Under the pieces are notes generated by a model. The model searched no databases. It was not told the origin of the DNA and worked only from the letters and a program-made list of their open reading frames with translations. The position numbers and the translations under genes were made by a program. Below are positions 1,486 to 29,839 of a stretch of 55,168 nucleotides of DNA, piece after piece. Source of the stretch: a virus; the IMG/VR virus record IMGVR_UViG_3300020171_000035, positions 1 to 55,168 of that record; one strand, written 5' to 3'. Every line of letters starts with the position of its first letter. The first letter of the stretch is position 1.

Positions 1486-1830
1486 ATGGGACGCGTATTA
1501 TCACGAAGAACTTGCGGGAAGCATCCAAGGAAGGCATATGCTATTGCGGCCACTGGCACAACTTTCGATGCCACATTCAATCTTGAGGGAGAAGTTCTGA
1601 CCCGATACATACTGGAATGTTACGATTCAACGGAAGACCGAACCAGAACGTTATCAATCATAGATGCAAACAGTATTACGATCTGGTCTGGAGCCGCACA
1701 TGCCGATGCTGCTAATTATTCTATCCCCGTTGATGTTGAGTTGGATGGAACATATACCTTCAGGCTTACGTTATCTGGCGCTGCTGGTGGCACTGGCGGG
1801 ACTGATAACCTGACCTTATTTACGAGGTAA
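1486..1830 (+). CDS. Small beta-rich virion-associated protein
   Basis: It has a strong ribosome site (AAAGGAGG, 1473-1480). The 114 residues begin basic with one cysteine. They continue as alternating beta strands rich in T, S and G, ending in a glycine-rich turn and a short hydrophobic strand. No catalytic motif is visible. It lies 3 bases before a lectin-like gene, so a decoration, fibre-accessory or chaperone-like role in the tail-fibre block is plausible. I do not recognise a named family. Confidence 0.65.
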   Translation: MGRVLSRRTCGKHPRKAYAIAATGTTFDATFNLEGEVLTRYILECYDSTEDRTRTLSIIDANSITIWSGAAHADAANYSIPVDVELDGTYTFRLTLSGAAGGTGGTDNLTLFTR

Positions 1831-1833
1831 GAA

Positions 1834-3219
1834 ATGCGAACAGAGAGACATTGGCGTCCATTTCCGGCAGATCCCTCCTGCGTACTTCACTTACCATTTT
1901 ATAAATATGGATCGGAGCAGTCTAAAATCCTGGACATCTCTGGACAGAATAATCACGGAGTGATCACTGGAGCCGTTCCTTATCCTGGTAATCCTCAGAT
2001 GACCTCTGTTGGCTCAACTCTCAACCGTGGTGACTTCACTGCCACCAACGCCTTCTTCTGGTCATCCCTTAACCTAAGTTCCTATGCTGGTAATGACTCA
2101 GGTTATACTCCTTATTACATCGAACTCTTAGACGGTACAGGCAAGAAAGCCACTGGCTACATTGGAGCAACTGGGGCAGGGGAGACGTTAGACGCCAATA
2201 TAGTTGCCGGATGGGATTTTACAAGTGGGTGGAGTAATTATTCGAATGCAACCATTATAGATTCCGACAGTTTTACCACAAGCGATACTGGGGGTATTAT
2301 GTCGGTTTATGGCATTCTTTCTATGTCTTCTTTGTACGCATATACTTATGTTGCAACAAATGGACACTTAGTAAATGGAGCGAATGGAGTGACAATTGCC
2401 TTGAATGATGGAGTTACAAAATATGATTGTACGGTTTATCCAGCTATCATTCCCTATAGACTCGGTGCAGGAAATGTTGATGTAACCACTTTAAATGTTC
2501 AACGTGTCACCGATCCTCCCGCAACCGCTGTCCACATTGTTTCCTCTCTTAATGGCACGACGAGGAATTGGGCAAGCATAGAGAGTGGATTTGATCCGAA
2601 TACGATAGCGAGTTGGAAGATCAATGGTGTGATTCCCAAGACGGCGATTGGATGGTATTTCGATGATGTTGATGACAGAATAGCCCATCCTTCTATCAAC
2701 TTTGGCAAGACTCACACCCTACTTTACTGGCTTCGATCTTTTGCAAATGCCAAGGACATTATTCATGGAAGGGCAGCCAACAACCATGTGGCGATAGATG
2801 GAACCAACCTATATTACAATGCCGGAGCGACCGAACTTTCGCAGGCTCATGGTGGAGGGATTGGTAATTCTACGATGATTGGAATTGCCAGATCAGGGAC
2901 AACCGTTCAATTCTTTAAGAATGGTATCCAGGTCGGGGCGGATCAGGTTCTCGATGCAAATAATGATCTAACACTGACAACTCTTGGTTCATACGACACA
3001 CCGGGAACATTCTTGGGTGGGGTGATACCAGAAAATTTAGGATTCAACCGTACTCTCTCAGCACAAGAAATCCGTAACTATTATGAATTGACAAAATATC
3101 GTTATGTTTTTTTTTCAACATCTGAGGGTGGTGCTCCACCATCAGACAATAAATTACTACTAAATATTGGTGACTATCTCCTTCTAAATTCTGGAGATAA
3201 GATTCTATTAAATAATTAG
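1834..3219 (+). CDS. LamG/concanavalin-like virion protein with a large internal insertion
   Basis: The protein has 461 residues. Residues 10-45 (CVLHLPFYKY, then LDISGQNNHGVITGA) match the first strands of a LamG jelly-roll. The fold resumes about 220 residues later at GWYFDDVDDRIAHPSINF, then LLYWLR, VQFFKNGIQVG and LGFNRTLSAQEIRNYYELTK, the classic C-terminal LamG strands. The stretch between looks like a separate beta domain inserted into the loop. The last 20 residues repeat an LLLN-x-GD unit three times. It probably binds glycan on the host surface or on the particle. Family assignment is by pattern only. Confidence 0.75.
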   Translation: MRTERHWRPFPADPSCVLHLPFYKYGSEQSKILDISGQNNHGVITGAVPYPGNPQMTSVGSTLNRGDFTATNAFFWSSLNLSSYAGNDSGYTPYYIELLDGTGKKATGYIGATGAGETLDANIVAGWDFTSGWSNYSNATIIDSDSFTTSDTGGIMSVYGILSMSSLYAYTYVATNGHLVNGANGVTIALNDGVTKYDCTVYPAIIPYRLGAGNVDVTTLNVQRVTDPPATAVHIVSSLNGTTRNWASIESGFDPNTIASWKINGVIPKTAIGWYFDDVDDRIAHPSINFGKTHTLLYWLRSFANAKDIIHGRAANNHVAIDGTNLYYNAGATELSQAHGGGIGNSTMIGIARSGTTVQFFKNGIQVGADQVLDANNDLTLTTLGSYDTPGTFLGGVIPENLGFNRTLSAQEIRNYYELTKYRYVFFSTSEGGAPPSDNKLLLNIGDYLLLNSGDKILLNN

Positions 3220-3230
3220 GGAGTATTGTT

Positions 3231-4436
3231 ATGGCAGACACAAAAGTTATCGACCTAACCGCTGATGCAACCCCAACGTCAGATGATCTTATTTATGTAA
3301 GCGGAGACCCGACTGGGAGTCCAGTCGATAGAAAGGTTACCCTGGCAAATGTTCCAGTAGCATGGGGGACAACTGCTACAAAGGTTGGATATACTAGCGA
3401 TGTTACCTCTGCCATTCAAGCCCAATTAAGTGGTAAGCAAGCATCCGATGCAGAATTGACCGCTATTGCTGGGCTTACCTTCGCAGATGTTTCGATTATA
3501 GAATTAACGGGTGCATCAACAGCAGCAGTTGTAACCTCTGGTGGGGGGGGGAGACTACTGGGAAGCAACTCTGGTAATACAGCACTTGAATTTAAATCTT
3601 CCATTACTGGAATAACCATAGGTGGTTTAACCGCCTCTAAAAATGTCCTCAGTGATGTTAGTGGTAATCTTATTGCTTCAACATCTTCCGTTGCAGATAC
3701 ATTTGCAATGGGGACAATTCTGCATGCATCGGCAGCAAATACGGTAACGGGTTTGGCGACAGGAGCTACAACCGATATCCTTGTTGGGGGTGGTGCAGCG
3801 GCCCCAGTTTGGACGGCTGCAACGGGAACTGGCGCTCCGGTTAGGGCAGACTCTCCTACATTAGTTGATGATGTTAGTATTGGAGCAGCAGGGGTAAAAC
3901 TTACAGGGGCAAATGGAGCGCTGACAATCCTTGGATTAGGTGATGGTGCAGATGAGGATGTTAAAATTGACCTCAACACTACCGCCAATACAATCATCTT
4001 TTCCTCACCCGCTTCAAGTGCAACCGATGTTTCTTTTTCAGCTTTACACCTTGCTACGACAGGAATCATCTCGGGGAAAATTGGGGTAATATCAAAAGGT
4101 GCGGCCTATACTCTTGGGACTGATAGTGCGAAAGAACTCTATGGATACATGGTAATCGCAACAGCAGCCATGACCCTTACCCTACCTAATATTGATGCCG
4201 CCAATGGAGTTGGACAATCAGTTTGCATATATTCAACGGGAGCAAATGTTATACGGGTTAATCCGGGCGATGCAGATAAGATTCGACTTAACGGGACCCT
4301 TGGTGCTGCCGGGGTAGATATCTACAGTGCCGGTGCTGCTGGAAATTTTATTTGTCTAGTGGTAACTGATTTCGCAACGGATGTGGCCCACTGGACTACG
4401 CTTGGTTCGAGTGGCACATGGACCGTGGGAACATAG
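3231..4436 (+). CDS. Tail-fibre-like protein
   Basis: There are 401 residues, low in charge and rich in A, G, T and S. Near residues 60-85 is the stretch TSAIQAQLSGKQASDAELTA, a phrase typical of phage fibre shafts. The first 45 residues (DLTADATPTSDDLIYV, then DRKVTLANV) closely match the start of the protein at 12416-13177, suggesting a common virion-attachment module. A run of nine G at 3543-3551 encodes part of SGGGGR and is a potential slippage site. The C-terminus ends in beta strands and a W-rich tail. It probably forms a trimeric receptor-binding or adaptor fibre. Confidence 0.75.
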   Translation: MADTKVIDLTADATPTSDDLIYVSGDPTGSPVDRKVTLANVPVAWGTTATKVGYTSDVTSAIQAQLSGKQASDAELTAIAGLTFADVSIIELTGASTAAVVTSGGGGRLLGSNSGNTALEFKSSITGITIGGLTASKNVLSDVSGNLIASTSSVADTFAMGTILHASAANTVTGLATGATTDILVGGGAAAPVWTAATGTGAPVRADSPTLVDDVSIGAAGVKLTGANGALTILGLGDGADEDVKIDLNTTANTIIFSSPASSATDVSFSALHLATTGIISGKIGVISKGAAYTLGTDSAKELYGYMVIATAAMTLTLPNIDAANGVGQSVCIYSTGANVIRVNPGDADKIRLNGTLGAAGVDIYSAGAAGNFICLVVTDFATDVAHWTTLGSSGTWTVGT

Positions 4437-4449
4437 GGGGGACCTTGGT

Positions 4450-5205
4450 ATGGAAAGAACATGTTCACATAATTGGATTAAGAAACAAGTTGGTTGTTGT
4501 AAGAAATTTGTCTGCATCAAATGTCAGAAAATGTGGATGAATAAGGAGAGCCCCTATTCAATGGTCGGTGCTGCAAGGGGAATACTCGGAAATCAGGACG
4601 GCTTTTTAAACATGGGAGTGATTGGGGGAGGAGTGCCTGTGGCTGCTGGATACAGTGACACCTTTACCGGCACTAACGGAACACATCTTTACGATCACGA
4701 TAATAATTGGACAGCGATAACTGGGCATGATGTTGATAATGTGGTTATCAACGATGGAAATGCTGAACAGGTGGCTGCTTGGAGTGAGGCTGCTGTTTTT
4801 TACAATGCGAGTTCTTCGGAGATATCCGAGGTTGTCTTTATTGGAAATGCAGTTAATACCTCTCACCGTGGACGGCCGTGTGTCAGAATGGGTGGGACTC
4901 ACGTTGGATATAGTGCTTATTTGGTAGATGTATTAGACGACCACTATACATCTTTATATATAAATAAAGATGGGGAATATTTTAGCAATGGTAGTACAAC
5001 AGGTGATTGGCCAGTTGCATCTAACCATACGGTAAGAATAGCTACTTCAGGAACCACCACCGTTACGATTGATACATGGGTGGATGGTGTTTTATTAACC
5101 CAAAGATCAGACCCATTATCTCCCCTTGGGGCAGGGAAACCTGGTATACATTTTTCTAGTGGAGTTGTTAGTCAGACAAGGGTGACAAGTTGGAAAGATT
5201 ATTAA
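4450..5205 (+). CDS. Lectin-like protein with an N-terminal cysteine cluster
   Basis: I chose ATG 4450; the more upstream ATG 4381 would overlap the preceding gene. Residues 5-25 hold CSHNW, GCC and CIKC, which look like a zinc ribbon. From about residue 60 the protein is a beta-sandwich: YSDTFTGTNGTHLYDHDNNW opens it and a GIHFSSG turn then TRVTSWKDY closes it, as in concanavalin-like glycan-binding domains of phage tail proteins. The zinc-like head may be a fusion of a small cytosolic protein. Alternatively the lectin may start at ATG 4561, which has GGAGAG upstream. Confidence 0.65.
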   Translation: MERTCSHNWIKKQVGCCKKFVCIKCQKMWMNKESPYSMVGAARGILGNQDGFLNMGVIGGGVPVAAGYSDTFTGTNGTHLYDHDNNWTAITGHDVDNVVINDGNAEQVAAWSEAAVFYNASSSEISEVVFIGNAVNTSHRGRPCVRMGGTHVGYSAYLVDVLDDHYTSLYINKDGEYFSNGSTTGDWPVASNHTVRIATSGTTTVTIDTWVDGVLLTQRSDPLSPLGAGKPGIHFSSGVVSQTRVTSWKDY

Positions 5206-5216
5206 AAGGAACACAA

Positions 5217-6554
5217 ATGAGAAAATTGTTCTTTACTATTTTAATTTTATTTTCTTTCGCTTCAATGGGACGGGCAGCGACCATAACTGTTGGTGATGGA
5301 AAAACCCACGCCACGATTCAGGCAGCCATAAATGCGGCTTCGAGTACCGATACGATAGAGGTCTATACTAAGGCTGCAACATCTAATGTCTATGCCGAAA
5401 GCATAGACGAAAATGGTCTTAACACTATCACCTTGATTGGTATGGTTGCAAATCAGGGGATCACCATAGATGGAACAGGTATTGCCCAACTTGCTGGGGG
5501 AGAGAATGTCAGAATATCTGGCGTTACTGGTTGGACGATACAGAACTTCACATTAAAAGACAATGATAATGCTACTCTGTCTGTAGTCCGTTTCGGGGGA
5601 GGTAGCGGTCATACTTTAACTAAATGTAAATTAAGCAGTACGATAACTGCTGCCACACAGATAGTACGTGAAGTGGCTCTTTGGACTTCTACTGGATGCA
5701 CAATTACACAAAATGTTTTCGAAAGCAGTATATCTGGAAATCAATATCATCAATTAACCCTGACCGAAGGTTCAAATAATGCTACCGTAAAATATAATGA
5801 TTTTGGTGGAACAAATGTTTATCTGAACCTCTACCTTGGAACTACAGACAACTCCTCGAATTCTGCTACCGTTCAATATAATTATTTCCATTCATCTATG
5901 AGTCTTGATTGGCTTGGAATTATCTATGTTAGGGACACTTCTGGACATAGTATAAAATATAATCTTGTCATTCCTTCATCTGTGGCTCATTCAGGAGATT
6001 ATGGAAAAGCGGCCTCTATTGTATTAAGAGAAGATAACTGTATAAACAATGACATTCAACACAATACAGTTGTTTTTCCATCAACAGGATTAAATGATCA
6101 ATATGAAAGCATTATATTATATTACGATGATGTTGAGGGTAATGCTGGACCTAATGTGGTCAAGAATAATATATTTCAAGGAGGATCATATACTCATAAT
6201 GGGATGGTGAACGGTTCTACCATAGATAGTATTACATATAATTACCATTACAATCCTCAAGATGATTATCAATATAATTGTTTCGGAGGTTTCACTTTTA
6301 CGAACTATGCCAACAACACCGAAACTCTCTTGGTTGCCCCAGGTTTCGCTGGCTCAGGCACAGTTTGGGAGACAGATGGGACAGATGTGGGGACGAGTTC
6401 AACTTATTATAGGTTGACCCAGAGTGCACCAGCAAGGACAACTGGAGAGGGTGGAACATATTGTGGTGCATTTAGTTCTGGTAACACATTAACCCTCGGC
6501 ACAGGCTCCCAATCCATCACAATAGGTGGAGGGAGTCTGTCAATAACGTGGTGA
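5217..6554 (+). CDS. Secreted parallel beta-helix protein (pectate-lyase-like fold) with Sec signal peptide
   Basis: ATG 5217 follows AAAGGA at 5205-5210. The first 20 residues form a textbook signal peptide: MRK, a hydrophobic core LFFTILILFSFA, and SMGRA with cleavage expected after A20. The mature part opens with THATIQAAINAASSTDTIEV, the start of many right-handed beta-helix proteins. Repeated N/T/S-rich rungs follow (for example GCTITQNVFESS, NATVKYNDF, SATVQYNYF). No lyase or hydrolase catalytic set is obvious. The gene overlaps the signal peptidase gene by 4 bases (GTGA). An exported glycan-binding, glycan-cleaving or surface protein is likely. A signal peptide is unusual for a tail spike, so export during infection or lysogeny should be considered. 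Confidence 0.8.
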   Translation: MRKLFFTILILFSFASMGRAATITVGDGKTHATIQAAINAASSTDTIEVYTKAATSNVYAESIDENGLNTITLIGMVANQGITIDGTGIAQLAGGENVRISGVTGWTIQNFTLKDNDNATLSVVRFGGGSGHTLTKCKLSSTITAATQIVREVALWTSTGCTITQNVFESSISGNQYHQLTLTEGSNNATVKYNDFGGTNVYLNLYLGTTDNSSNSATVQYNYFHSSMSLDWLGIIYVRDTSGHSIKYNLVIPSSVAHSGDYGKAASIVLREDNCINNDIQHNTVVFPSTGLNDQYESIILYYDDVEGNAGPNVVKNNIFQGGSYTHNGMVNGSTIDSITYNYHYNPQDDYQYNCFGGFTFTNYANNTETLLVAPGFAGSGTVWETDGTDVGTSSTYYRLTQSAPARTTGEGGTYCGAFSSGNTLTLGTGSQSITIGGGSLSITW

Positions 6555-6967
6555 GTTCAGTACTTATACCACTTTTTACCATTGGTGTAGTTATTCTTGT
6601 TGGAATTCTAGTAAGATACATTTGGATAGGTGTTGGATTTGTTGTATCCGAATCCATGTTTCCTGCATTGCTAGTTAATGATATTATATTAATCAATAAA
6701 TTAAATAAAACCCCCATTGTGGGAGATATATTCGCATTTAAGTATCATAATAAGACCTATATTAAAAGGGTAGCCATTGTAAATGGAAATGGGGTATATT
6801 TTTTAGGAGACAATAAAAAGAATAGTAAAGATAGTAGGTTCTTTGGTTATATAAGTCGAGACCAATTAGTCGGTAGGGTTTTTAAAATATTACTTTCATT
6901 TGATGAAAAGTGTAATATAAGATGGAATAGGATTTGGTCTCAAATAAACGGTGGGGTGTGGTCATGA
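6551..6967 (+). CDS. Type I signal peptidase (S26 family, LepB-like)
   Basis: It starts at GTG 6551 (or the adjacent GTG 6548), overlapping the beta-helix stop. Residues 5-30 are one hydrophobic membrane anchor. The S26 boxes are all present: SESMFPAL with nucleophile S35, the strand VGDIFAFK, TYIKRVAI with general base K72, and FLGDNKKNSKDSRFFGYI matching box E (GDN, then SxDSR, then G). At 138 residues it is a minimal form. It would cleave Sec signal peptides on the outer face of the cytoplasmic membrane. The gene just upstream encodes a protein with a clean signal peptide, so that protein is the obvious candidate substrate. The host has its own enzyme, so the phage copy may have different specificity or supply extra capacity. 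Confidence 0.88.
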   Translation: MSSVLIPLFTIGVVILVGILVRYIWIGVGFVVSESMFPALLVNDIILINKLNKTPIVGDIFAFKYHNKTYIKRVAIVNGNGVYFLGDNKKNSKDSRFFGYISRDQLVGRVFKILLSFDEKCNIRWNRIWSQINGGVWS

Positions 6968-7218
6968 TTTATCTGATCTCGGCTTTGTTTATTGCAGCCA
7001 ATATCCTTGACTGGTATCTGACAAAAAGAATCCTAGATAAGGGTGGCAATGAATTAAATCCCATCTTGAGGAAATTCGGTGTTGCCAAGGTTAAGTTAAT
7101 CGTCTGTCCCCTTTTTGTATTGGCCGGATTCATACTCCATTGGGCAATTCTTATTGTTCCGACGCTGATAATTGCAGGAGCGTGCGCTTGGAATTACCGT
7201 GTCTATAGAAAAATGTAA
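6964..7218 (+). CDS. Small polytopic membrane protein (DUF5658-like)
   Basis: ATG 6964 overlaps the signal peptidase stop (ATGA). The 84 residues hold about three hydrophobic stretches (MIYLISALFIAANILDWYL, the VKLIVCPLFVLAGFIL region and AILIVPTLIIAGACAW). The motif NILDWYLTKRILDKGGNELN followed by P resembles DUF5658 membrane proteins (D-x-x-x-T, G-x-E-x-N-P, then a K). Its role is unknown. Coupling to the signal peptidase suggests a shared membrane function, such as an immunity, anchoring or superinfection-exclusion partner. Confidence 0.65.
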   Translation: MIYLISALFIAANILDWYLTKRILDKGGNELNPILRKFGVAKVKLIVCPLFVLAGFILHWAILIVPTLIIAGACAWNYRVYRKM

Positions 7219-7261
7219 TCATCAAAAATTCTTGAAATCTTTTCGATACAGGGAGGGTAAC

Positions 7262-7357
7262 ATGGAAGAAGAAGAAAAAGAACAATCCAAGCAAGATATT
7301 GTTCTTGAGGTCCAAGATGTTTGTCAGGTCTTAACTTTTAAAACTATAGGAGATTAA
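7262..7357 (+). CDS. Very small acidic protein (31 residues)
   Basis: ATG 7262 has a GGGAGG site about 6 bases upstream. The peptide starts MEEEEKEQSKQ and ends in a short hydrophobic strand. It ends 1 base before the next gene. No family is recognised; it could be a small regulatory or scaffolding peptide of the virion operon. Confidence 0.45.
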   Translation: MEEEEKEQSKQDIVLEVQDVCQVLTFKTIGD

Positions 7358-7358
7358 C

Positions 7359-7718
7359 ATGGGAAAATCAGTAGCCGATGCAGTTTTAGATGCTGCCCTG
7401 GAGGTTATTAAAACCTCTACACGAATGGATGTTACGAGTGATGTCGGTACCCCTGCCGACTTATCTAATACTCTTGCAAACGTTGCCATGACTCCAGCGA
7501 CCGATTATGCAATTGCGAATGGGGATACTTCTGGGCGTAAAATTACTACAGCACAAAAAGCTGGTGTATCCGTGACGGGAAGCGGAACTGCAAGGCATGT
7601 TGTGTTGAGCCTAACTGGTGCAATCAAGCTTACCACCACCTGCACGGAGCAAGTCTTGACATCGGGTAATACAATCACGATACCCGCATTTAAAGACGAA
7701 ATCGCTGACCCGACGTAA
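7359..7718 (+). CDS. Conserved phage virion-region protein (ADAVLDAALEVI family)
   Basis: The 119-residue protein begins VADAVLDAALEVIKTSTRMD. It continues with GDTSGRKITTAQKAGVSVTG, a run of beta strands, and ends near LTSGNTITIPAFKDEIADP. This order is familiar from a family of unnamed proteins in phage structural operons (D-A-x-L-D-A-A-L, G-R-K-x-x-x-A, T-S-G-N-T). It is probably a small particle component or tail-fibre accessory. No enzymatic residues are visible. Family recognition is from memory of the pattern. Confidence 0.65.
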   Translation: MGKSVADAVLDAALEVIKTSTRMDVTSDVGTPADLSNTLANVAMTPATDYAIANGDTSGRKITTAQKAGVSVTGSGTARHVVLSLTGAIKLTTTCTEQVLTSGNTITIPAFKDEIADPT

Positions 7719-7779
7719 TGGTAGATACTTAAGGGAAGTATAAAATAAAATATGTTCAGTTACATTAACTGCCCTTCCA
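7719..7779. other. Short intergenic spacer
   Basis: There is a TA-rich gap of 61 bases before the HxH-repeat fibre gene. I see no good ribosome-binding site in it; AGGGAAG at 7731-7737 is too far away. The start of the next gene at ATG 7780 is therefore the least certain in this operon. Confidence 0.3.
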
Positions 7780-9795
7780 ATGACAATTAGGCAAGAAATT
7801 AATATCCTTAATTCTTTATATCAAAGTACCGCTAGTGCTACAGTTGATAGTGGTGAACGGATCCATTTAGGTGCATATATAGAATGGTGGGACGGAAAGA
7901 CCGTTTACTTTGAGGTTTTTGCTTATAATTCGGACAGTCAGGCCAGAACCGTAAGTTTGCTTGATCGAAATGGTAGCCTAGAAGTTTCCGTTTCTGTGCC
8001 CAACAACAGTACTTGGACAAGAGTAAGATCTGGTAACTTTACAGGATCATATGAATCAATAAGATTTATTAGATTAGATGGAACTACGGATGCTGGTCAG
8101 TTGCAGGTTAAATCGGCCAGGGTAATTGTAATTCAGAATAATTTCACCAAGACTTATACCCAGATTGAGATTGGCAATAAAGAGACAGGCAAGACAAATA
8201 TAACGAGTCTACCGCTTACTTATCCCAAATATTGGAAATATGAGGCTAACAGGTGGGGAAATAACTGTGTTTTTACATTTCATCTTGCTGCTGAAGTTGA
8301 GGTAAATCAACAGAATCATTATCTTACTGCCACGTTGCAAGAAGACGATGGTAATTTTGATAACTGGACAGATAAAGTTTCCGTAGTATTTTATCAACAG
8401 TCACCGGGCATGTTGACTTCAAATTCCTTTACTCCCACAGATGGCCGCAATTACAGGATCGTGACCAAGACCTCTAAGGCGACCATTTGGTATAATATTT
8501 ACAATTTGAAAATTGCCGTAGAACAGGTCAGTTCAGTCGTTAAACTCCAACCGCAATATTTGATTGTAAATACGAATGAAGGTAGTACCGGACTGAAACG
8601 CTATGATAACCTTTTTGATCCAGCAGATTGGTCTGGCGTCAGTAAAGATTTTTATCATGAAATTAATTCGTCTATAGATACTACTGATTCGGCCAAGCTT
8701 CAAAGAGATCCTGGCGGAACACCCGTCGATATTCCAAATTCGACCGCTACTGGTGCAAATAGGGCAAGGAGTTTGGCCATGACAATGCCCGATTCTGCAC
8801 ATAATATTGGTACGAATGTTCTGAATGTGCCTATTTATGCAAGTAGAATTGTCGCTAATATTGACTGTGGAGTTTATAGTTTAACAATACAAGCATTACA
8901 GCATGATCATATATTGGGTACGGTTACCTTATCGCAGGTACACAACCTTATTGTACAGAGCTCACAGCATGTTCACGGCATTGATAATGTAGCTATATCC
9001 ACCGCTATTTGGTTGGCTATCCAGGACATGCTTCATTCTAACGTAATAGATGGAATTGCATTACTTCAGATTCACAATATTACAATATCGGATTTGTTAC
9101 ACTCACATGTTATTGGTACACCAACCCTATCGCAGATTCATAATCTAATAATACAGGCACTCGTTCATGGACACGGTCTGGATACAGCTACATTAACACA
9201 GGTTCACAATCTTATTGTTCAGACACTTCTCCATTCACATAATCTTGGAGCGGTAATTCTTTTACAGGTTCATAATTTACTAGTTAATCATCCTACTCAT
9301 ACGCATGGCTTGGATGCAATCACTCTTAATCAAATACATAATCTTACAATACAGAATTTACAACATACTCATTCCGTTAGTAACGTTTTTTGGAATACCT
9401 TTTTAATCGTAGACGGACTCTTGCATGGTCATATACTAGAATCACTAACATTATTAAAATTAGCTGGTGAGTTTTATTACGAACACCTTGGCGGTAAGAT
9501 TCCAAGATTGGATATATCTGATTTAATTGCGGACTTTTCCTTTAATCGTCCAAAAAGTAAGAAATCAGAACTAGATATATCGGGTTCGTTTGAATATGAA
9601 GTTGTGGGTGGATCTTTGCTAGGATCATTAACACCTGCACAAACAGCAGATGAATTTTATTATGAATGTCTTGGCGGGAAAGTTCCAAAACTAGATGTAC
9701 CAGATTCAATCGGGGACTTCCTTTTCGATCGTCCTAGGAGGAAGGAGCCAAAATTAAGTGCAACTGGTTCATTTGAATACGAAGAGGTTATATGA
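7780..9795 (+). CDS. Fibre protein with tandem HxH metal-binding repeats and a duplicated C-terminal module
   Basis: There are 671 residues. Residues 1-350 are beta-rich, possibly two jelly-roll units. From about 370 to 560 are eight to nine repeats of about 22 residues with the pattern Q-V/I-H-N-L-x-I-Q-x-L-x-H-x-H-x-L-x-x-x-x-L. This HxH pattern recurs in phage fibres; in T4 gp37, HxH motifs in a trimer coordinate iron along the axis. The last 110 residues contain two copies of an EFYYE, LGGK, PKLD, F-RP, GSFEYE module. It is probably a trimeric, metal-stabilised fibre. It overlaps the adaptor gene by 4 bases. Confidence 0.75.
   Translation: MTIRQEINILNSLYQSTASATVDSGERIHLGAYIEWWDGKTVYFEVFAYNSDSQARTVSLLDRNGSLEVSVSVPNNSTWTRVRSGNFTGSYESIRFIRLDGTTDAGQLQVKSARVIVIQNNFTKTYTQIEIGNKETGKTNITSLPLTYPKYWKYEANRWGNNCVFTFHLAAEVEVNQQNHYLTATLQEDDGNFDNWTDKVSVVFYQQSPGMLTSNSFTPTDGRNYRIVTKTSKATIWYNIYNLKIAVEQVSSVVKLQPQYLIVNTNEGSTGLKRYDNLFDPADWSGVSKDFYHEINSSIDTTDSAKLQRDPGGTPVDIPNSTATGANRARSLAMTMPDSAHNIGTNVLNVPIYASRIVANIDCGVYSLTIQALQHDHILGTVTLSQVHNLIVQSSQHVHGIDNVAISTAIWLAIQDMLHSNVIDGIALLQIHNITISDLLHSHVIGTPTLSQIHNLIIQALVHGHGLDTATLTQVHNLIVQTLLHSHNLGAVILLQVHNLLVNHPTHTHGLDAITLNQIHNLTIQNLQHTHSVSNVFWNTFLIVDGLLHGHILESLTLLKLAGEFYYEHLGGKIPRLDISDLIADFSFNRPKSKKSELDISGSFEYEVVGGSLLGSLTPAQTADEFYYECLGGKVPKLDVPDSIGDFLFDRPRRKEPKLSATGSFEYEEVI
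8878..9456 (+). repeat. Tandem coding repeats, 22-residue HxH units
   Basis: About 66-base units encode the motif HNL-x-I-Q-x-L-x-H-x-H-x-L. Most units keep H at both HxH positions (HDH, HVH, HSH, HGH, HSH, HTH, HTH, HGH); one unit reads HSN. Nucleotide identity between units is modest, so the array is old or held by selection on protein. Such arrays can change length by recombination. Confidence 0.8.
9465..9795 (+). repeat. Duplicated C-terminal module of the HxH fibre
   Basis: Two copies of a module of about 47 residues are present. The first begins EFYYEHLGGKIPRLDISD and the second EFYYECLGGKVPKLDVPD; both end in GSFEYE. They are separated by about 15 residues (LLGSLTPAQTAD region). The copies have diverged, so the duplication is not recent. 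Confidence 0.75.
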
Positions 9796-10703
9796 ACATA
9801 GCTGAAATTGTAAGTTTAGTCCGTAATGAAGTGTTAGATGATGCTGTGATGCCATATCTATGGACGAATGCCGGACTGGTGAGTCATTTTAACCGTGTAT
9901 ACGATGAGCTTGTCCGCGAGACATACTGCATAGTGGATTCGTCTACGGTTAGCGTATGTCAAGTTCCATTGCTCGCGAATCAGTCCCTGCACGCTGCGAG
10001 CCCGAAGGTGTTAAAGATCTTAAGCACATGGCTAAACAGTAATGGATATCCGTTAGACCGCAAGACCGAAGCATTCATGAATGGGTACTTCAACTGGCGC
10101 GCTACGACTGGAACGTATCCATATTGGTTAGTGATGGATAGTCAGAATCGAAATATCGTTCCGTACCCAAAGTATGACACCACTGGGTATGTTGCCGGTG
10201 CATCCAATATCACATTTAATGCGGCAGCAAAAACTATCACAAAGGTTGGAGAAACATTTACCAGTCATTATACAACTGGCGATTCCATCGTGGTAACCGG
10301 GTCTCTTTCAAATAACGGTACGCTTACGCTCTCAAATGTAACAGACACAATTCTTACCGTGAATGAAACTCCTGTTAATGAAAATCTGTGTAGCGCAACG
10401 CTACGGAAAGTCCGCGATACCGTGCTTATGCGAGTTGCCCGGTTACCACTTGTAACGTATACGGCGAGTGATTTGGGGCTCGCAACACCTCCAACCCCAG
10501 AACTGGATGCCACATACCATTATGGGTTAATGGACGGGATTGCCAAATACGCTTACCTGAAGCAAGACACGGAAACCTATGATTTCGAAAGATCAAAACG
10601 ACACGGGGATATATTCGGGGAATTTAAAAGTAGCGTAGCGCTTGATATGGCGATTCTCATGGAGGGTGATACGGTATGCTCTCCACATCTAGGAACATTA
10701 TAA
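9792..10703 (+). CDS. Head-to-tail adaptor-like protein
   Basis: The 303-residue protein has an N-terminal helical part, IAEIVSLVRNEVLDD then WTNAGLVSHFNRVYDELVRE. This matches the pattern of phage adaptors (gp6/gp4-like, DUF6682-like): a conserved W followed by a helix with N-x-x-x-D/E-L. Residues about 138-200 (ITFNAAAKTIT, GDSIVVTGS, NNGTLTL) form an inserted beta domain often found in this family. The helices resume after VRDTVLMRVARLPLVTY. It should sit below the portal. Its position before a run of tail-completion-like genes agrees. Confidence is limited because the portal is outside the window. Confidence 0.7.
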   Translation: MNIAEIVSLVRNEVLDDAVMPYLWTNAGLVSHFNRVYDELVRETYCIVDSSTVSVCQVPLLANQSLHAASPKVLKILSTWLNSNGYPLDRKTEAFMNGYFNWRATTGTYPYWLVMDSQNRNIVPYPKYDTTGYVAGASNITFNAAAKTITKVGETFTSHYTTGDSIVVTGSLSNNGTLTLSNVTDTILTVNETPVNENLCSATLRKVRDTVLMRVARLPLVTYTASDLGLATPPTPELDATYHYGLMDGIAKYAYLKQDTETYDFERSKRHGDIFGEFKSSVALDMAILMEGDTVCSPHLGTL

Positions 10704-11599
10704 TGGCAGAAACCTTTATTGAAATGAAAGATATTAAGGGTGTAATGAATACGGTTGACCCAACACGGATTCCAGGGGACTACCTTGCAGTTGGGACCAA
10801 CATAGACATCGATGATGAGTTTATGGTTAAGATGGCCAGGGGGCATGTGAAAATTATCTCTGGAAATTGTCATAGCCTATGGTCGAATAAGGACAAAACG
10901 TTCGGCCTTTTTGTAAATGGTGGTGCATTAAAGATGCTTCACCAAGACCTGGTAACAGTAACAACCCTTTTGTCTGGCCTGTATGTAGGTTCCCCAATGT
11001 GCTACACCGAGGGCGGCGGGCTTATCTTTTTCTCAAACCGCGAAGTTATTGGATGTATCCGGGATGGTATTGCTTATCCATTCCCCACGATAGACCAGCC
11101 ATTCAAAAAACGCATGGTTGGCGGACACATTCTTGAATATTTTAATTCAAGGCTCTATGCGGCTGGTTCTGAAATTATTGCTTACAGCGATGCAGCTTCT
11201 CCGTTTATGATGGATGAGCGTGATAACGCTATCCAGCTAACCGGCCAGATTACAATGATGAAGGCGATTGCTGATGGAATGTATGTCAGCCACGGAAATA
11301 CCGTCGCATTCCTTTCGGGACTCTCTCCTTCTGAGTTTAAATATATCCCAGTTAATGACAGCCCTGCCATACCCGGGATGTCTATGACGGTAGAGGGAGA
11401 AGAAGTAGCGAAGGGTATTATGGGACGTGTTGCTATATGGTGGGCGGAAGATGGATGTTTTATTGGTTTACCGGAGGGACAGGTTAAAAACCTGACCAAA
11501 GGTTATTTTACCCTTGAAGACGTGGAGGGTGGTGCCTTAATCTATCGTGACGATCTTGGATTCGGGCAATTCCTTGGAGCGTATAAGGCAAAACTTTAA
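10676..11599 (+). CDS. Virion protein, probable beta-propeller-like tail component
   Basis: The start at ATG 10676 is supported by GGAGGG at 10661-10666, and it overlaps the adaptor gene by 28 bases; ATG 10703 is an alternative. The sequence follows a known but unnamed phage family placed just after adaptors: NTVDPTRI, YLAVGTNIDIDDEFMVKMAR, SLW, LFVNGGALKML, then blade-like strands repeating G-x-x-x-Y/F. WWAEDGCFIGLPEGQVKNLT near the end is also typical. It probably helps close the head or form the tail tube. Confidence 0.6.
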   Translation: MLSTSRNIIMAETFIEMKDIKGVMNTVDPTRIPGDYLAVGTNIDIDDEFMVKMARGHVKIISGNCHSLWSNKDKTFGLFVNGGALKMLHQDLVTVTTLLSGLYVGSPMCYTEGGGLIFFSNREVIGCIRDGIAYPFPTIDQPFKKRMVGGHILEYFNSRLYAAGSEIIAYSDAASPFMMDERDNAIQLTGQITMMKAIADGMYVSHGNTVAFLSGLSPSEFKYIPVNDSPAIPGMSMTVEGEEVAKGIMGRVAIWWAEDGCFIGLPEGQVKNLTKGYFTLEDVEGGALIYRDDLGFGQFLGAYKAKL

Positions 11600-11614
11600 T
11601 AGGAGGATATTACA

Positions 11615-12400
11615 ATGGCATTTCAATTTTCTACAGGTTTGAGGCAGTATTTATTGGGTGAAGGATCGGTTCGAAAGGCGTTTGAAGATTCGATGATTAA
11701 AATCTTCAGCGGGACCGCTCCCGTAGATGCAGATGCAGCGGAAACTGGGGTTTTACTTTGCCCTATTACAAAGGCGAGCGGGACAGTTACCCTTGGAGAT
11801 CGATCTACTCCAAGAGCGTATGAAATTGCAATATCGGGCACTATCACGACCGGTAATGTGGTTAGTATTAACGTTACGGTTGATGGTGTTGGTCCAACGG
11901 CGTATCCCTATACGATTCTTGCCGCAGATGATAGTCGTCTAAAAATCGCCGCCAAGGTTGCCAGAATGTTAAATGACATTCCGCAAATTCGGGCAATCCC
12001 GGATATCGATGATGCGACTGGCCTTATATACGTTCAGGGCAGTATCGATGGTTTAGATTTAACTTTGGCAGATGTTCCCGGAACATGTACGACAACCGTT
12101 ACTGCAAAACAGGCCGCAGTAAGAACCAATTGTATCCAGCTAGCCCTTCCGGTTGCTGGTACTATCGGAAAGGAATCCGCTGTTAATTCTGGAATCAACG
12201 TTGCCGCTGGAACCGCCAGTCATTTTAGACTTGTTATTTCAACGGATGTTGGATCTTCCACCGCCCTAACTAACCTAAGAATTCAAGGAACGGTTGGTAT
12301 TAGCGGAACCGACTTGGTTCTTAACTCGACAAACTTCGCTGTTGGTGCAACAACGACTATCAGTTCGATTGCGATTACAATCCCGGCAACGACAGTCTAA
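11615..12400 (+). CDS. Virion protein with phage structural signature
   Basis: A strong AGGAGG site precedes ATG 11615. The N-terminus reads FSTGLRQYLLGEGSVRKAFE, followed by IKIFSGTAPVDADAAETG, a phrase seen in many unnamed structural proteins of tailed phages. The middle and C-terminus are beta strands rich in T, V and G. It is probably a tail or decoration protein. No enzymatic motif is seen. Confidence 0.6.
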   Translation: MAFQFSTGLRQYLLGEGSVRKAFEDSMIKIFSGTAPVDADAAETGVLLCPITKASGTVTLGDRSTPRAYEIAISGTITTGNVVSINVTVDGVGPTAYPYTILAADDSRLKIAAKVARMLNDIPQIRAIPDIDDATGLIYVQGSIDGLDLTLADVPGTCTTTVTAKQAAVRTNCIQLALPVAGTIGKESAVNSGINVAAGTASHFRLVISTDVGSSTALTNLRIQGTVGISGTDLVLNSTNFAVGATTTISSIAITIPATTV

Positions 12401-12415
12401 ATAGGAGGGATTAAA

Positions 12416-13177
12416 ATGCCGAATTTAAAGATTACCCAATTAACTCCGGATACTACACCGACTGCCGATGACCTGATTATAATAGTAAACGATCCCGGAG
12501 GAGTCCCTACTAATAGAAAGGCGACGATTGCCAATCTTTTTGCTGCCAATAAGTTGTCTGCGCTTGCCGCCACCACCTCGGCTGAACTTGCCGGGGTGAT
12601 AAGTAATGAAACTGGTACGGGAGCCTTGGTGTTTGCTGAAAGCCCAACGCTTGTAAGTCCTGCACTTGGAACACCAGCGTCAGCAGTCTTGACTAACGCA
12701 ACGGGACTACCAACGGCGGGGCATGTCGATGCTAGCGTTACTGGAGTAAAGTTATCGGCTACGGCAGGTTCGAAATCTATTGTGAGGGAAGGAAAAACAA
12801 TTGCTACCGCTGCTGGTGCTACTAATGAATATATTATTGCCCCAGAAGCGGGTTCATTAACTTCAGTTGAAATTAATCCCCTAGATGCCTTGGCAGCAAA
12901 CGATACCAACTATATCACTTGGACCGTGGTTAACTTAGGACAAAACGGAGCAGGCTCAACTGCCATGCTGGCCGTTGATAATGCTAATACCACCAAGGCA
13001 ACCGGTGGAACAGCATTGGCTGTTAATACTAAGCGAACCTTGACCATTCATGGTACAGAGGCAAACCTAGTTGTGGCGCAAGGCGATAAGATTCAAATTG
13101 TCGCTACTGTTAGTGGAACCCTAGCTAATACAGTTACTGTTCCTATTTATATATTGAGATTTAAAGTAACAACCTAA
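12416..13177 (+). CDS. Tail-fibre-like protein, paralogue of the 3231-4436 protein
   Basis: It is preceded by AGGAGGG. The first 40 residues (KITQLTPDTTPTADDLIIIV, NDPGG, NRKATIANLF) align with the start of the fibre-like protein at 3231. The centre (ESPTLVSPALGTPASAVLTN) is a shaft sequence common in phage fibres. The last 120 residues are a compact beta domain. The shared head suggests that both proteins dock to the same virion site. It is probably a short fibre or an adaptor. Confidence 0.7.
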   Translation: MPNLKITQLTPDTTPTADDLIIIVNDPGGVPTNRKATIANLFAANKLSALAATTSAELAGVISNETGTGALVFAESPTLVSPALGTPASAVLTNATGLPTAGHVDASVTGVKLSATAGSKSIVREGKTIATAAGATNEYIIAPEAGSLTSVEINPLDALAANDTNYITWTVVNLGQNGAGSTAMLAVDNANTTKATGGTALAVNTKRTLTIHGTEANLVVAQGDKIQIVATVSGTLANTVTVPIYILRFKVTT

Positions 13178-13204
13178 CCTTAGTTTAAATAGGGGGAATT
13201 TAAA

Positions 13205-13756
13205 ATGGCAAAAGTAGTATCCTTCGATGGTTCGGTAGCGACCTTTCGTATCTTGGGAAATGCCGCTACCACACATAATTTATTTACTATTGAGAACGCA
13301 GTCGGTTCAACCACACTAATTGGCATTAGGGAGCTAATAGTTCAATTAGATGCAACCGCTGTTTTGGTAGCAGTAATGCCGTTAGTGAAGGTAAGTCGTC
13401 CGGCTGCGCTTCCAACGGGTGGCACTGTATTAATAAAAAGTAAATTCGATACAAACCAAAGTCCCAACGAAAGTGTCATACCAAGGGGGGCAAATGCAGC
13501 CGATGATGGTGGAGCTACGGCCATTACGGCTACCGCTGCCGACATCATGTGGCAACAGTATTGCATGAGACTACATACGGCTGCCGGACAGGTTCTAGCC
13601 CTTGATAATCACCTTATACCAAAATTAGCAGACACCCCCATTATTCTTCGGGCAAATCAGTCCTTACTTGTTCAAGTAGTAGCAGCGGTTGGAACAAGCA
13701 ACCCAGCTACAAATTACTGGTTTGTTCAGTGCGCATGGGAAGAGTTTACAATTTAA
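13205..13756 (+). CDS. Beta-rich virion protein, paralogue of the start of the next gene
   Basis: AGGGGGAAT precedes ATG 13205. The 183 residues align along their whole length with residues 1-215 of the next protein: ATFRILGNA vs ATFRTIGNA, LIVQLDATA vs LIVRLDATA, GTSNPATNYWFV vs GTSNPATNHWFV. This is a tandem gene duplication. The WQQYCMRLHTAAGQVLALDN stretch is the best conserved block. It probably forms a repeated subunit of the tail or capsid surface. Confidence 0.65.
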   Translation: MAKVVSFDGSVATFRILGNAATTHNLFTIENAVGSTTLIGIRELIVQLDATAVLVAVMPLVKVSRPAALPTGGTVLIKSKFDTNQSPNESVIPRGANAADDGGATAITATAADIMWQQYCMRLHTAAGQVLALDNHLIPKLADTPIILRANQSLLVQVVAAVGTSNPATNYWFVQCAWEEFTI

Positions 13757-13757
13757 T

Positions 13758-15485
13758 ATGGCTATAACCTATAAGGGACTCGCAGCAACCTTTCGTACGA
13801 TTGGAAATGCGTCAACGGTGCAGACTATCTTCACGTTGGCGAATGGCACAGATGCGGCTAATGTTGTTACTGTTCGTAAACTAATAGTACGACTTGATGC
13901 GACGGCAGCCCTAAATGAAGTAATGCCGCAGGTGAGGATAGGCCGTCACGTAACTTCTCCTGCGGGGGGTATTGTTCTTAATAAGGGTTCATTCGACACA
14001 GCCCTTACATCAGATAGTAATATCGTGCTTCGTGGTGCAGCAGTTTCCGATGGGAGCGCCCTGACCCCTATCGCTGTAACCAGTAGCGAAGAAGACTTTT
14101 ATCTACTCCTTGAAGATGGAACCTCATTACTTCTAGAAGATGAATCATTTTTAATATTGAATAGTCCCGCCAGGGTTACATGGCAACAATATACCATAAG
14201 ACTACACACGCTTGAGGGACAGGTTCTCTCTCGCGATAATGAAATTCTCCCATCCTCAGTAGAAGATACACCAATCGTTATACGTTCGGGCCAGGCGCTG
14301 GTCGTTCAAGTTATTTCTGGGATAGGGACAAGTAATCCGGCTACAAACCACTGGTTCGTGGAATGTGTATGGGATGAAGAATTACCACCGCCTGGTCCAC
14401 CCGGAGGTGTTTCGGCTGCAATCTCAGGATTCATTAACATAAGCGGAACCTTCGAGGGTATACAAACCCTTGACCTTATTTCGGGTGAGATTAGGTTTAG
14501 CGGTGAATTGGGGGGATTGACTGGTGGAGTCGGCTCTATCCTGGGATCCATTCCGATTCATGGATTAATCTACGGAGACCCAAGCCTTTATGGAACGATA
14601 ACTGGTTCATATGGATTGGCGGGAAATATATCTGGACTCGTAGGTTCATCCGGGCAAATCCTTGGGTATATCAATTTATCAGGAGAGAAATGGCATGGCT
14701 TCACTGATTTAATCGGAGCTCTATCGGGAAACATTCCGATTAGCGGTAGATTACAAGCCTTCCTTGAACTGCTTACATTTATACTTAAGGGCGCTGTAAC
14801 TAATGCCAGTCATTTTGGAGTGACTGAATATGAGGATTTCGGGTTTAATAGTTTTGCTTGCATCAATGGGGTTTATGTTGCAGCCAGTGAGGATGGTTTA
14901 TTTTCTTTGGGTGGAAAATTAAGGGACGGAGAACCAATACAATCTGAAATTGACGGTGGTATTATAGATTTTCATAAACCCTATAAAAGAAAACCAAGAC
15001 AGGTATGGATTACCAAACGTGTTGATGATGCAAATATTGTAACGGCAGCGGCTATCGTTAACGGAGGCTCCTCGTATGCAGTGAATAACATCCTGACCGT
15101 AGTGGGTGGAACCGGAACGGCTGCAACGTTGAAAGTGACAACGGTGTCCACTGGGGTCATTACGGGCATTACCATTAACGCAGTGGGCGCATATACCGTT
15201 AACCCAACGAATCCCGTTTTGGTAACGGGAGGGGCTGGTTCTGGTGCAACATTTAACCTAACACTTAAGGACCCACTTGTTTTAATCGTTAAGGGTGATG
15301 AGGATGATGTTCACGAATATCCAATTGTCATCATTGACAGTAAGATACACGAGGAACGTGTGAAGATTGCCCGTGGTTTAAGGAATCGGTTTTACCAGTT
15401 TGGTATCAAAAACGTCGATGGCGCTGACTTTGAAATAGATTCAATTCGTATTATGGTTGATGGAATTCCAGCGAAGAAACGTTAA
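13758..15485 (+). CDS. Multidomain virion protein (duplicated head, glycine-rich repeats, beta modules)
   Basis: I chose ATG 13758, just after the previous stop; earlier starts would lie inside that gene. Residues 1-215 are the paralogue of the preceding protein, with an insertion FYLLLEDGTSLLLEDESFLI that repeats an LLLED unit. A proline-glycine linker (PPPGPPGG) leads to about 130 residues of short I-S-G repeats, probably a beta-solenoid. Residues about 430-510 (IVNGGSSYAVNNILTVVGG, then GAYTVNPTNP, GSGATFNLT) match a domain common in phage fibres. The C-terminal 60 residues are charged. It is probably a tail-side or fibre-anchor protein. Confidence 0.65.
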   Translation: MAITYKGLAATFRTIGNASTVQTIFTLANGTDAANVVTVRKLIVRLDATAALNEVMPQVRIGRHVTSPAGGIVLNKGSFDTALTSDSNIVLRGAAVSDGSALTPIAVTSSEEDFYLLLEDGTSLLLEDESFLILNSPARVTWQQYTIRLHTLEGQVLSRDNEILPSSVEDTPIVIRSGQALVVQVISGIGTSNPATNHWFVECVWDEELPPPGPPGGVSAAISGFINISGTFEGIQTLDLISGEIRFSGELGGLTGGVGSILGSIPIHGLIYGDPSLYGTITGSYGLAGNISGLVGSSGQILGYINLSGEKWHGFTDLIGALSGNIPISGRLQAFLELLTFILKGAVTNASHFGVTEYEDFGFNSFACINGVYVAASEDGLFSLGGKLRDGEPIQSEIDGGIIDFHKPYKRKPRQVWITKRVDDANIVTAAAIVNGGSSYAVNNILTVVGGTGTAATLKVTTVSTGVITGITINAVGAYTVNPTNPVLVTGGAGSGATFNLTLKDPLVLIVKGDEDDVHEYPIVIIDSKIHEERVKIARGLRNRFYQFGIKNVDGADFEIDSIRIMVDGIPAKKR

Positions 15486-15486
15486 T

Positions 15487-17427
15487 ATGGCAGAAGATAA
15501 ATACTTTCATCAGAACCCTGTAAGGTGGAAAATAATTGGCAATCAGCTCGATGCACTTCCGTATCGTGGCGAGGCTACGAAATTGCTCTGGCAATTAAAG
15601 AACGGTATGAAGTTTAATGATATAAGGCAAGGTGGGATGACACGATATTTTGAGGATGGAACGGTTATTACTGCTAGGTCTGTTTTTGGACAGGATTTTT
15701 TAAGCATTAATGTTCCATCGATTCCAATGGTAGCGATGGAGGAAGAAGAGATTGATGGATTCTTAGTATTTTATATCAAGAATGGACTACTAAAGTTTAG
15801 TCTTATAGAATATCTGCAATTAAATTCTATCGCTAACGGAACTAGTAAGGCAAAGCCCAAGGAAAAGGATGCCCTGGAGAATGGATTTGATATACAAACG
15901 TTTCAAAACAACCTACATTGGCCGTTTATCCACTGTTGTGTTCCCTTTGAATATCTTTACGAGACTGGGAGCGAAACGGTAACTAAGAATATTTATATCA
16001 TAGGATTGGGGTTCAAGTTAAATCCTAGCGTGAAATCTGAGGGACCACTCCCAGAATATGAAAATTACAGTTATCTTTCTGACGGTGGGATTTCAGATCC
16101 AATGGTGACCGCACCATCGTATCATCCCGTTTATTTCTACGTTTTTGATCCAGATTCTGGAAAATATTACTATTTAGGAAAGGATGAAGCGGGATGGTGG
16201 GCTACTGGCTGGTCCGGTGGTTTTAACGTTAATGGAAATAAAATCTACTACCATGATGCAAACGAAAGTCTTCTAAAGGTATTTCAACTTAAAGACGAAG
16301 AAATAGTTTTAATTAAACAGGTTGACACGAATTGGGAGAATGGACTTTTTGTGTCGTCTGACGGTTATTTTTATGGTTGGTATCGTGAAATTGTTGGGAA
16401 AAAAAATACTTCCTGGTATCCAGGCATTCTCTACGAGTTAACGAATCACGATCTTACACATTGGGTGATGTATGCGGGAGAAGAGCCAAAATATTACATG
16501 AGGTTAAACATAGAAACCGAAGAGTGGGAGCCATATTGGTACGATGAATTAATCTCGAACAGCGAAACTGGCACCTGGAGAACCACCACATGCCCATTAA
16601 ATGAGTCGGCATCCTTTACCTATTCCCAGATTGGTAAAAGATGGTATATCAAATCTGATGGTAAAAAGCTGGTCATGGATTACATCCTTTATGATATTGA
16701 CACAAGCGGAACTCAGGAAGGGGTTTATACGTCAGAAAACTTGGGTGGCCCTCCAGAACATCCAACAACGAAATATCATTTTACCCTCGATGAAATCATG
16801 TCGGGAAGTGGTATCGCTCAAGCCAAAAACTTCGCTAAAGTCTATACATCTTTTTCAAGAAACACAAATAAGCACGTTTACTACACATACACACAGGAAT
16901 GGGATCCAGGGTTGCTGCCGGAGGCAGGATATAAAGTAATCGAAATAACGGTTGAAGATAACGAAAATGTTGGATGGACATCCCAATTGGACTTGGGCAT
17001 GATGAGATTTCCCTTCCTTAAAGACGATAAAATATTCTGTCAATTAGAGAAAAATGATTATGAGGTTTCTTCCAACATTGTGGGTCACTGGACACAAGCT
17101 GAAGGATACGTAGTCGATTCTGGCTCCAGGTCTTATGGAGGTAGCAATCCACCGTATTACCTTTACTCTCCCTATGAGGAATTTCCGCTTACCAGACCTC
17201 AGGAATGGATCGAATACGGACAGATCTATTCCGATTATAATAAACTCCTTGTTCAATCCGTTGTTTCCGGATCAGCAGTGGGATTCAATCCTATTATTTA
17301 TTTTAATGGGCAACGAATAGAGGATCAATTAGCTTCTTGTTTGGAAATTAGTCCAAGCGATATCATGTGTATCGTTATGGTTCCAGGATTAGATAAAGAT
17401 CCAAACAGAACAATATTTACAGGTTAG
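15487..17427 (+). CDS. Large virion-region protein of unknown family
   Basis: ATG 15487 follows the previous stop by 1 base. The 646 residues are aromatic-rich (many Y, W and F) with repeated strand-turn motifs such as KYYYLGKDEAGWWATGW and YFYGWYRE. That would suit a beta-propeller or a stack of beta hairpins. The first 60 residues (YRGEATKLLWQLKNGMKFND) are helical. No catalytic signature was found. By position it belongs with the tail or particle-surface genes. Confidence 0.6.
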   Translation: MAEDKYFHQNPVRWKIIGNQLDALPYRGEATKLLWQLKNGMKFNDIRQGGMTRYFEDGTVITARSVFGQDFLSINVPSIPMVAMEEEEIDGFLVFYIKNGLLKFSLIEYLQLNSIANGTSKAKPKEKDALENGFDIQTFQNNLHWPFIHCCVPFEYLYETGSETVTKNIYIIGLGFKLNPSVKSEGPLPEYENYSYLSDGGISDPMVTAPSYHPVYFYVFDPDSGKYYYLGKDEAGWWATGWSGGFNVNGNKIYYHDANESLLKVFQLKDEEIVLIKQVDTNWENGLFVSSDGYFYGWYREIVGKKNTSWYPGILYELTNHDLTHWVMYAGEEPKYYMRLNIETEEWEPYWYDELISNSETGTWRTTTCPLNESASFTYSQIGKRWYIKSDGKKLVMDYILYDIDTSGTQEGVYTSENLGGPPEHPTTKYHFTLDEIMSGSGIAQAKNFAKVYTSFSRNTNKHVYYTYTQEWDPGLLPEAGYKVIEITVEDNENVGWTSQLDLGMMRFPFLKDDKIFCQLEKNDYEVSSNIVGHWTQAEGYVVDSGSRSYGGSNPPYYLYSPYEEFPLTRPQEWIEYGQIYSDYNKLLVQSVVSGSAVGFNPIIYFNGQRIEDQLASCLEISPSDIMCIVMVPGLDKDPNRTIFTG

Positions 17428-17442
17428 AAGGGGTGATAAAAA

Positions 17443-29398: not shown

Positions 29399-29839
29399 CT
29401 ATGATAAGAATAGTTCGCGTTCTCGTAAGCGCCTTAAATATAATCCCTTGATTTTACGACCACCGGCAAAACACCAGCGAGAAAATTGCTCGGCAGCACC
29501 TGTGTATTCTTCACGGTTCAGCATAGACCGTAAGGTCGAAGCCTGGAGTGCTCCAGAACCGATATTGAAGCAAAAAGACAGCAACGCTGAATATTGATTG
29601 TCCGTAAGTGGCACTGTAATGAGCCGCATAATAGCTGCACCAGCTACCAGGAGATCCTTTCGTAGTAATTCTCCGGCCAACCCCATCGTGATTTCTTCGG
29701 GGAACACTTCACCCCTACGAATAAGATGTCCTATCCCAATCGTGTCTAACCCTGCCACATCTTTATAGGCGCGAAGTCGAACCCCTTCGTCACGCCTGAT
29801 ATGCTCGATTGCGATTTGAGGAATTTCGCGGACCTTCAT
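29399..29839 (-). CDS. Endolysin, GH24 lysozyme (T4-like)
   Basis: This 146-residue muramidase cuts the MurNAc-GlcNAc bond of peptidoglycan. The catalytic triad is intact: E18 in RRDEGVRL, D27 in YKDVAG and T33 in LDTIGIGH. The spacings (9 and 15 residues) equal those of E11, D20 and T26 in T4 lysozyme. There is no signal peptide or anchor, so it depends on the holin encoded just upstream. TAATG coupling joins it to that gene. Length is normal for the family (about 145-165). Confidence 0.93.
   Translation of the reverse strand: MKVREIPQIAIEHIRRDEGVRLRAYKDVAGLDTIGIGHLIRRGEVFPEEITMGLAGELLRKDLLVAGAAIMRLITVPLTDNQYSALLSFCFNIGSGALQASTLRSMLNREEYTGAAEQFSRWCFAGGRKIKGLYLRRLRERELFLS

Follow-up and report, generated by a model that had tools for sequence, protein, structure and literature searches.

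An F116-like podovirus with a predicted compact signal peptidase encoded directly behind a candidate exported protein in its virion operon

Type I signal peptidases use a Ser-Lys dyad carried by conserved SMxP, KR and GDN-SxDSR boxes, and the S26 enzymes are active at the outer side of the inner membrane. The virions of tailed phages, on the other hand, are assembled in the cytoplasm. Some phage-encoded proteins are exported and act at the cell surface, e.g., the surface-exclusion proteins Llp of T5 and Cor of phi80; proteins of this type are small lipoproteins or outer-membrane proteins, and none is known to be accompanied by a signal peptidase of its own. Full-text searches of one open-access library returned no paper whose title or abstract describes a phage-encoded S26 enzyme of the kind considered below.

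The sequence analyzed here (the window) spans a whole IMG/VR virus record, 55,168 bases long, with a virion operon on the plus strand in its left half (structural half, positions 1–26985). The operon comprises genes of an adaptor-like protein (phrog_399, 9792–10703), a head-closure Hc3 protein (phrog_8040, 10676–11599), a phrog_10969 protein (17443–18759) and a giant internal protein of 2,295 aa (20098–26985), all on the plus strand and in the order common to the window, Pseudomonas phage F116 and its relatives. By this shared virion module, with the marker genes at 9792–18759, the phage is assigned at the sequence level to F116-like podoviruses (the Hollowayvirus group). Among annotated relatives, an uncultured podovirus from Manatee Spring comes closest, at approximately 26% identity; single-sequence scans, which detect close relatives only, yielded none for the Hc3 and phrog_10969 proteins, and the alignment of Hc3 homologues was too divergent to serve for a scan. 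As the terminase (TerL), portal and major capsid genes of the relatives were not found in the 55-kb window, it is probably a fragment starting just to the right of these genes, at the fibre region. The segment upstream of the adaptor (1486–9795) encodes fibre-like and LamG-like proteins, as judged by sequence, and F116, 8P and similar relatives have large variable genes at the matching position. Fibre-like and LamG-like genes (1834–5205 and 7780–9795) flank three genes at 5217–7218, which form one head-to-tail, transcript-like array within this receptor-binding part of the operon.

The middle gene of the three (6551–6967, plus strand) encodes a compact S26 type I signal peptidase of 138 aa, starting at GTG 6551 (GTG 6548 is also possible). 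The earlier note had read it as a complete S26 enzyme, and family profiles bear this out, as both TIGR02227 (E=2.1e-20, 73.2 bits with the cut-off of 47) and PF10502 (E=1.2e-17, 64.8 bits with the cut-off of 22.9) match it, and boxes B, D and E are intact. According to alignments, the predicted catalytic Ser35 (codon 6653–6655) lies in box B, SESMFP, and the predicted catalytic Lys72 (codon 6764–6766) in box D, IKR (YIKR), while box E, GDNKKNSKDSRFFG (6806–6847), follows only 14 residues after box D. Residues S35, K72, G86-D87-N88, S92 and D94-S95-R96 are invariant across 12 compact viral sequences, that is, the window enzyme and 11 relatives. With these 11 relatives as the alignment, the AlphaFold (AF2) model has pLDDT of 84.9 and a single N-terminal transmembrane helix (residues 2–24), and its top Foldseek matches are structures of type I signal peptidases, with E down to 7.8e-6 (SipA 4n31, SpsB 4wvi, and E. 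coli LepB 1t7d). Hence, by family, motifs, membrane anchor and the predicted signal peptidase beta-fold, this is predicted to be a complete type I signal peptidase.

With the bacterial type I signal peptidases LepB, SipS and SpsB (TIGR02227, PF10502, MEROPS S26A) the window enzyme shares the Ser-Lys dyad, boxes B–E, one N-terminal transmembrane helix and the predicted fold, but it is phage-encoded, has only 138 aa and lacks domain II. The latter follows from the gap between boxes D and E, 14 residues compared to 54–197 in many of the other S26 proteins examined, so that the domain II insert is missing and the enzyme represents a natural minimal signal peptidase. Its C-terminal part is 40–46% identical, over 45–54 residues, to LepB-type sequences of Phocaeicola, Legionella and Caballeronia. 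The nickel superoxide dismutase (Ni-SOD) maturation protease (TIGR02754) is a compact S26 protein as well, and its profile matches in part (E=8e-14), but the score is below the curated cut-off (51.8 vs. 63.25 bits), and no Ni-SOD gene was noticed in the ORF lists of the window.

The first gene (5217–6554, plus strand) encodes a protein of 445 aa; ATG 5217 is the first ATG and is preceded by AAAAGGAA. The N-terminus reads MRKLFFTILILFSFASMGRA followed by ATITVGDGKTHATIQAAINAA, with the cleavage shown before ATI, and the former segment (5217–5276) is a predicted type I Sec signal peptide with no lipobox. Signal peptides were identified with a rule-based detector that requires a net-positive n-region, an uncharged hydrophobic core, small residues at –3 and –1, and no later transmembrane segment. 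All three regions and the small –3/–1 residues are present here, and the score of 3.66 is well above the background of the rule: among 6,782 internal positions in the virion proteins of the window none reached it, and among 7,145 internal methionines in F116-like ORFs five did. The signal peptide claimed in the earlier note is thus retained, and the product is predicted from sequence to be a Sec type I secreted protein. The detector favours cleavage after A15, and the site after A20 (GRA/A) also satisfies the –3/–1 rule. No other signal-peptide protein is encoded in the virion half.

No family match was found for this protein in Pfam (even with E up to 10), PHROG or NCBIfam, and no homologue in INPHARED phages, 145 loci, viral contigs or GTDB genome contigs by single-sequence scans, which detect close relatives only. 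Its single-sequence AF2 model is rich in strands, with pLDDT of only 38.7, and for that reason the Foldseek matches (best E of about 0.07–1.0, polygalacturonases and phage fibres being among the insignificant ones) were set aside as evidence of fold. A right-handed beta-solenoid (beta-helix-like) fold is plausible, judging from the strand pattern of this poor model and the visual impression of the earlier reader.

The third gene (6964–7218, plus strand) encodes a small membrane protein of 84 aa with two or three hydrophobic segments. It resembles DUF5658 at a score under the Pfam gathering threshold (E=9.7e-5, 23.5 bits vs. 25.2), and single-sequence scans of INPHARED phages and the 145 loci, which detect close relatives only, yielded no homologue. 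A search for DUF5658 in 29 records gave no match anywhere, the window itself included, and was too insensitive to count. As noted earlier, the three genes are coupled in turn: GTG 6551 of the peptidase gene overlaps the stop codon TGA 6552–6554 of the first gene, and ATG 6964 overlaps TGA 6965–6967 of the peptidase gene. Overlaps of the same 4-nt kind occur at other junctions of the window (497/500 and 9792/9795) and, being common in this genome, say little about partnership.

We suggest, with somewhat less than even confidence, that in its receptor-binding section this F116-like podovirus carries an accessory export module made of three late genes, with the S26 enzyme maturing the 445-aa protein. 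The latter would be exported by the host Sec machinery and lose its signal peptide to the membrane-anchored phage peptidase, whose Ser35/Lys72 dyad would face the periplasm; the phage enzyme would add to the activity of host LepB late in infection. Once mature, the protein might function beyond the cytoplasm, either in the envelope or on the surface of the cell, e.g., on polysaccharide as a depolymerase, in surface conversion or by keeping other phages off, and the DUF5658-like membrane protein may be a partner in the module. The activity of the peptidase, its choice of substrate and the envelope role of the exported protein are all inferred, and it is adjacency, and only adjacency, that suggests dedication of the enzyme to this product. 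Of the export and maturation cassette proposed in the earlier note, what stands is a true peptidase gene directly behind a gene of an exported protein; the partnership of the two is unproven, given that overlaps are common. The new feature of the locus is a phage-borne compact signal peptidase adjoining an exported protein, whereas compact phage S26 enzymes as such recur elsewhere. If the peptidase does mature exported proteins of the phage, tailed phages can bring a signal peptidase of their own, beyond host LepB, and this would offer a direct handle on the little-studied late phage proteins acting outside the cytoplasm.

Nearly as likely, and the main alternative, is that the peptidase gene, possibly with the small membrane protein gene, is independent cargo (a moron) that landed by chance behind the gene of an exported protein. 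The enzyme would then act on preproteins of the host or on other ones of the phage, or it would boost or alter secretion late in infection, leaving the 445-aa protein to be matured by LepB. The origin of the gene is consistent with this. The earlier note suggested looking for the same three-gene order in related phages, and it was not recovered there: an S26 protein scoring above the family cut-off is present in none of 50 F116-like records, and the phage and viral loci covered by the searches yielded no homologue of either the first or the third gene. Three weak TIGR02227 matches in F116-like records cover only profile positions 21–72, in frames of 252–319 aa, are below the cut-off, and are possibly S24 repressors. 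Given this absence from the 50 records, the peptidase gene is regarded, on sequence grounds, as an accessory insertion, as the export module also supposes. Its GC content is 31.4%, compared to 44% in the structural half, and is among the lowest 0.2% when segments of the same size are taken across 1–26985. In the tree of S26 cores, the window enzyme groups (support 95/91 and 99/94) with Gram-negative LepB-like sequences, away from the compact phage enzymes; this placement is tentative, as the branch is long and the columns few. Single-sequence scans, which detect close relatives only, found none for the enzyme. In the likeliest scenario, as we infer, a LepB-type gene of cellular origin was acquired and lost its domain II, independently of other phage S26 genes. 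Another virion operon gene, that of an HNH-like protein (939–1379), is also markedly AT-rich (35% GC), and both it and the peptidase gene are probably recent arrivals.

The distribution of S26 genes in other viruses bears on the same alternative. HMM searches of the hits from two DNA-pattern scans, which covered 2.9 million viral contigs, yielded 102 S26 frames (duplicates and fragments counted), many of them being host-like LepBs; as judged from these sequences, phage-encoded S26 enzymes exist, yet are uncommon. The earlier note considered a signal peptidase inside a virion operon to be unusual for a tailed phage, and here the survey disagrees. In a podovirus-like phage (L178, 2343–3170) the gene order is TerL, an 81-aa membrane protein, S26 and portal (TerL, portal, the head protein and a phrog_399 adaptor being confirmed via PHROGs), and L166 and L187 encode an S26 protein identical to that of L178. 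In L050 the S26 gene has the gene of a 98-aa membrane protein on one side and that of a phosphoesterase on the other, with TerS, TerL and portal downstream, and in L185 it is located beside a head gene, on the opposite strand. In the available DNA of L178, L166, L187 and L050 we found no signal-peptide protein that could count as a neighbour of the S26 gene, the only signal-peptide match being the L050 S26 itself. Hence, S26 genes recur in packaging or virion operons, usually with no obvious neighbouring substrate, so that this position is shared by other phages and does not by itself point to a dedicated one. That such genes occur beside small membrane proteins in unrelated late operons also favours the cargo explanation. 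Against the cargo explanation stands the location of the window gene: it directly follows the one signal-peptide gene in the virion half, its start codon overlaps the stop codon of that gene, and no promoter or terminator above the chance level lies in between. Against the export module, the searches of phage and viral loci recovered no second pair of an exported protein and S26.

Elsewhere, compact S26 genes belong to an early-gene array, unrelated to virion genes, with the full order PDDEXK nuclease, S26, SpoVS-like, QueD and QueE in L022, L065, L068 and L069, and parts of it in L032, L043 and L061 (the genes of the array were named by eye). The compact enzymes of L178/L166/L187, L050 and L022/L032/L043/L061/L068/L069 share with the window enzyme one transmembrane helix and the short spacing between boxes D and E, but are only about 25–35% identical to it and separate from it on the tree. 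In two large records, L044 and L017, which may not be phages, S26 genes first looked to support adjacency to signal-peptide genes as a rule; scanning of the whole 192-kb record and of 160 kb of the 437-kb record demonstrated that signal-peptide proteins are scattered, with no enrichment at S26, and the rule was abandoned. S26 matches in INPHARED were not accepted as phage genes, as the one checked, in an Acinetobacter record, proved to be the host lepA-lepB-rnc-era locus, and the others, in unannotated “UNVERIFIED” records, were not used. In L026 (7565–9716), a subtilase-like protein, S26 and a trypsin-like peptidase are clustered beside a 2,496-aa protein.

Exported proteins of the virion type are not restricted to the window. 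The F116-like record L131 (20 kb) encodes two adjacent virion-protein paralogues (4322–5888, 35% identity), the second of which starts with MKVFKKIGLALALLALLIPGNAGA followed by AV, a clear Sec signal peptide; the record has no S26 gene above the cut-off. The two phages thus share membership of the same group and a virion operon gene with a Sec signal peptide, but the exported protein of L131 is from a different family than the 445-aa protein, and there is no accompanying peptidase. Host LepB can therefore probably suffice, and by analogy L131 weakens the need for a dedicated phage peptidase put forward earlier, yet supports the reality of exported virion-type proteins.

A more specific version of the export module, which we consider unlikely, is a dedicated peptidase–substrate pair placing a spike-like beta-solenoid on the host surface as a decoy or an enzyme that would block or redirect competing phages. 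If this is so, then, together with the L131 paralogue, export of virion-type proteins would be a recurrent strategy of F116-like phages.

It is slightly less probable still that the 445-aa protein is a tail spike or fibre of the virion, its hydrophobic N-terminal stretch being a segment for insertion or anchoring in a membrane at infection, trimmed by S26 during maturation. The gene does reside among fibre-like and LamG-like genes, in the region matching the variable fibre region of F116-like phages, but the product starts with a cleavable Sec signal peptide of textbook form, and it does not have the N-terminal sequence common to the products of the genes starting at 3231 and 12416. Moreover, virion assembly takes place in the cytoplasm and does not meet the side of the inner membrane where S26 acts. 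In tailed phages, this cytoplasmic assembly makes it very unlikely that an exported protein becomes an ordinary component of the virion; as the export module supposes, the 445-aa protein should hence act in the periplasm, at the outer membrane or outside.

Least probable of all is a part for the peptidase and the small membrane protein in the lysis programme, e.g., in processing an exported lysis regulator or lytic transglycosylase: the L050 S26 gene adjoins a small membrane protein gene upstream of terminase, the window phage has a transglycosylase with a signal peptide, and a phage lysis protein whose signal peptide is cleavable has a precedent in T4 RI (PMC8385771), but the lysozyme-type endolysin and the neighbouring membrane-like gene of the window (29399–30300) are 22 kb away from the three genes, on the opposite strand.

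Only two other proteins of the whole window have credible signal peptides. One is a trypsin-like peptidase (Trypsin_2; 31114–32043, minus strand) with a signal peptide or lipobox-like FIGC, and the other is the SLT lytic transglycosylase (43867–44316, plus strand). Both are possible further substrates of S26, whose role in the export module might thus extend to cleavage of their signal peptides. A fourth match of the detector, at 33784, was taken as false, since the N-terminus is of the nucleotide-binding type. In six F116-like phages (L083, L088, L089, L099, L103 and L128) we observe an antisense gene of a small secreted DUF4124-looking protein immediately behind the phrog_10969 gene, at approximately 11.5–12.2 kb on the minus strand. 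Finally, at the very start of the window, a glycosyltransferase-like frame (48–949) overlaps a hexapeptide acyltransferase frame, and these may be surface-glycan modification genes of the same operon.
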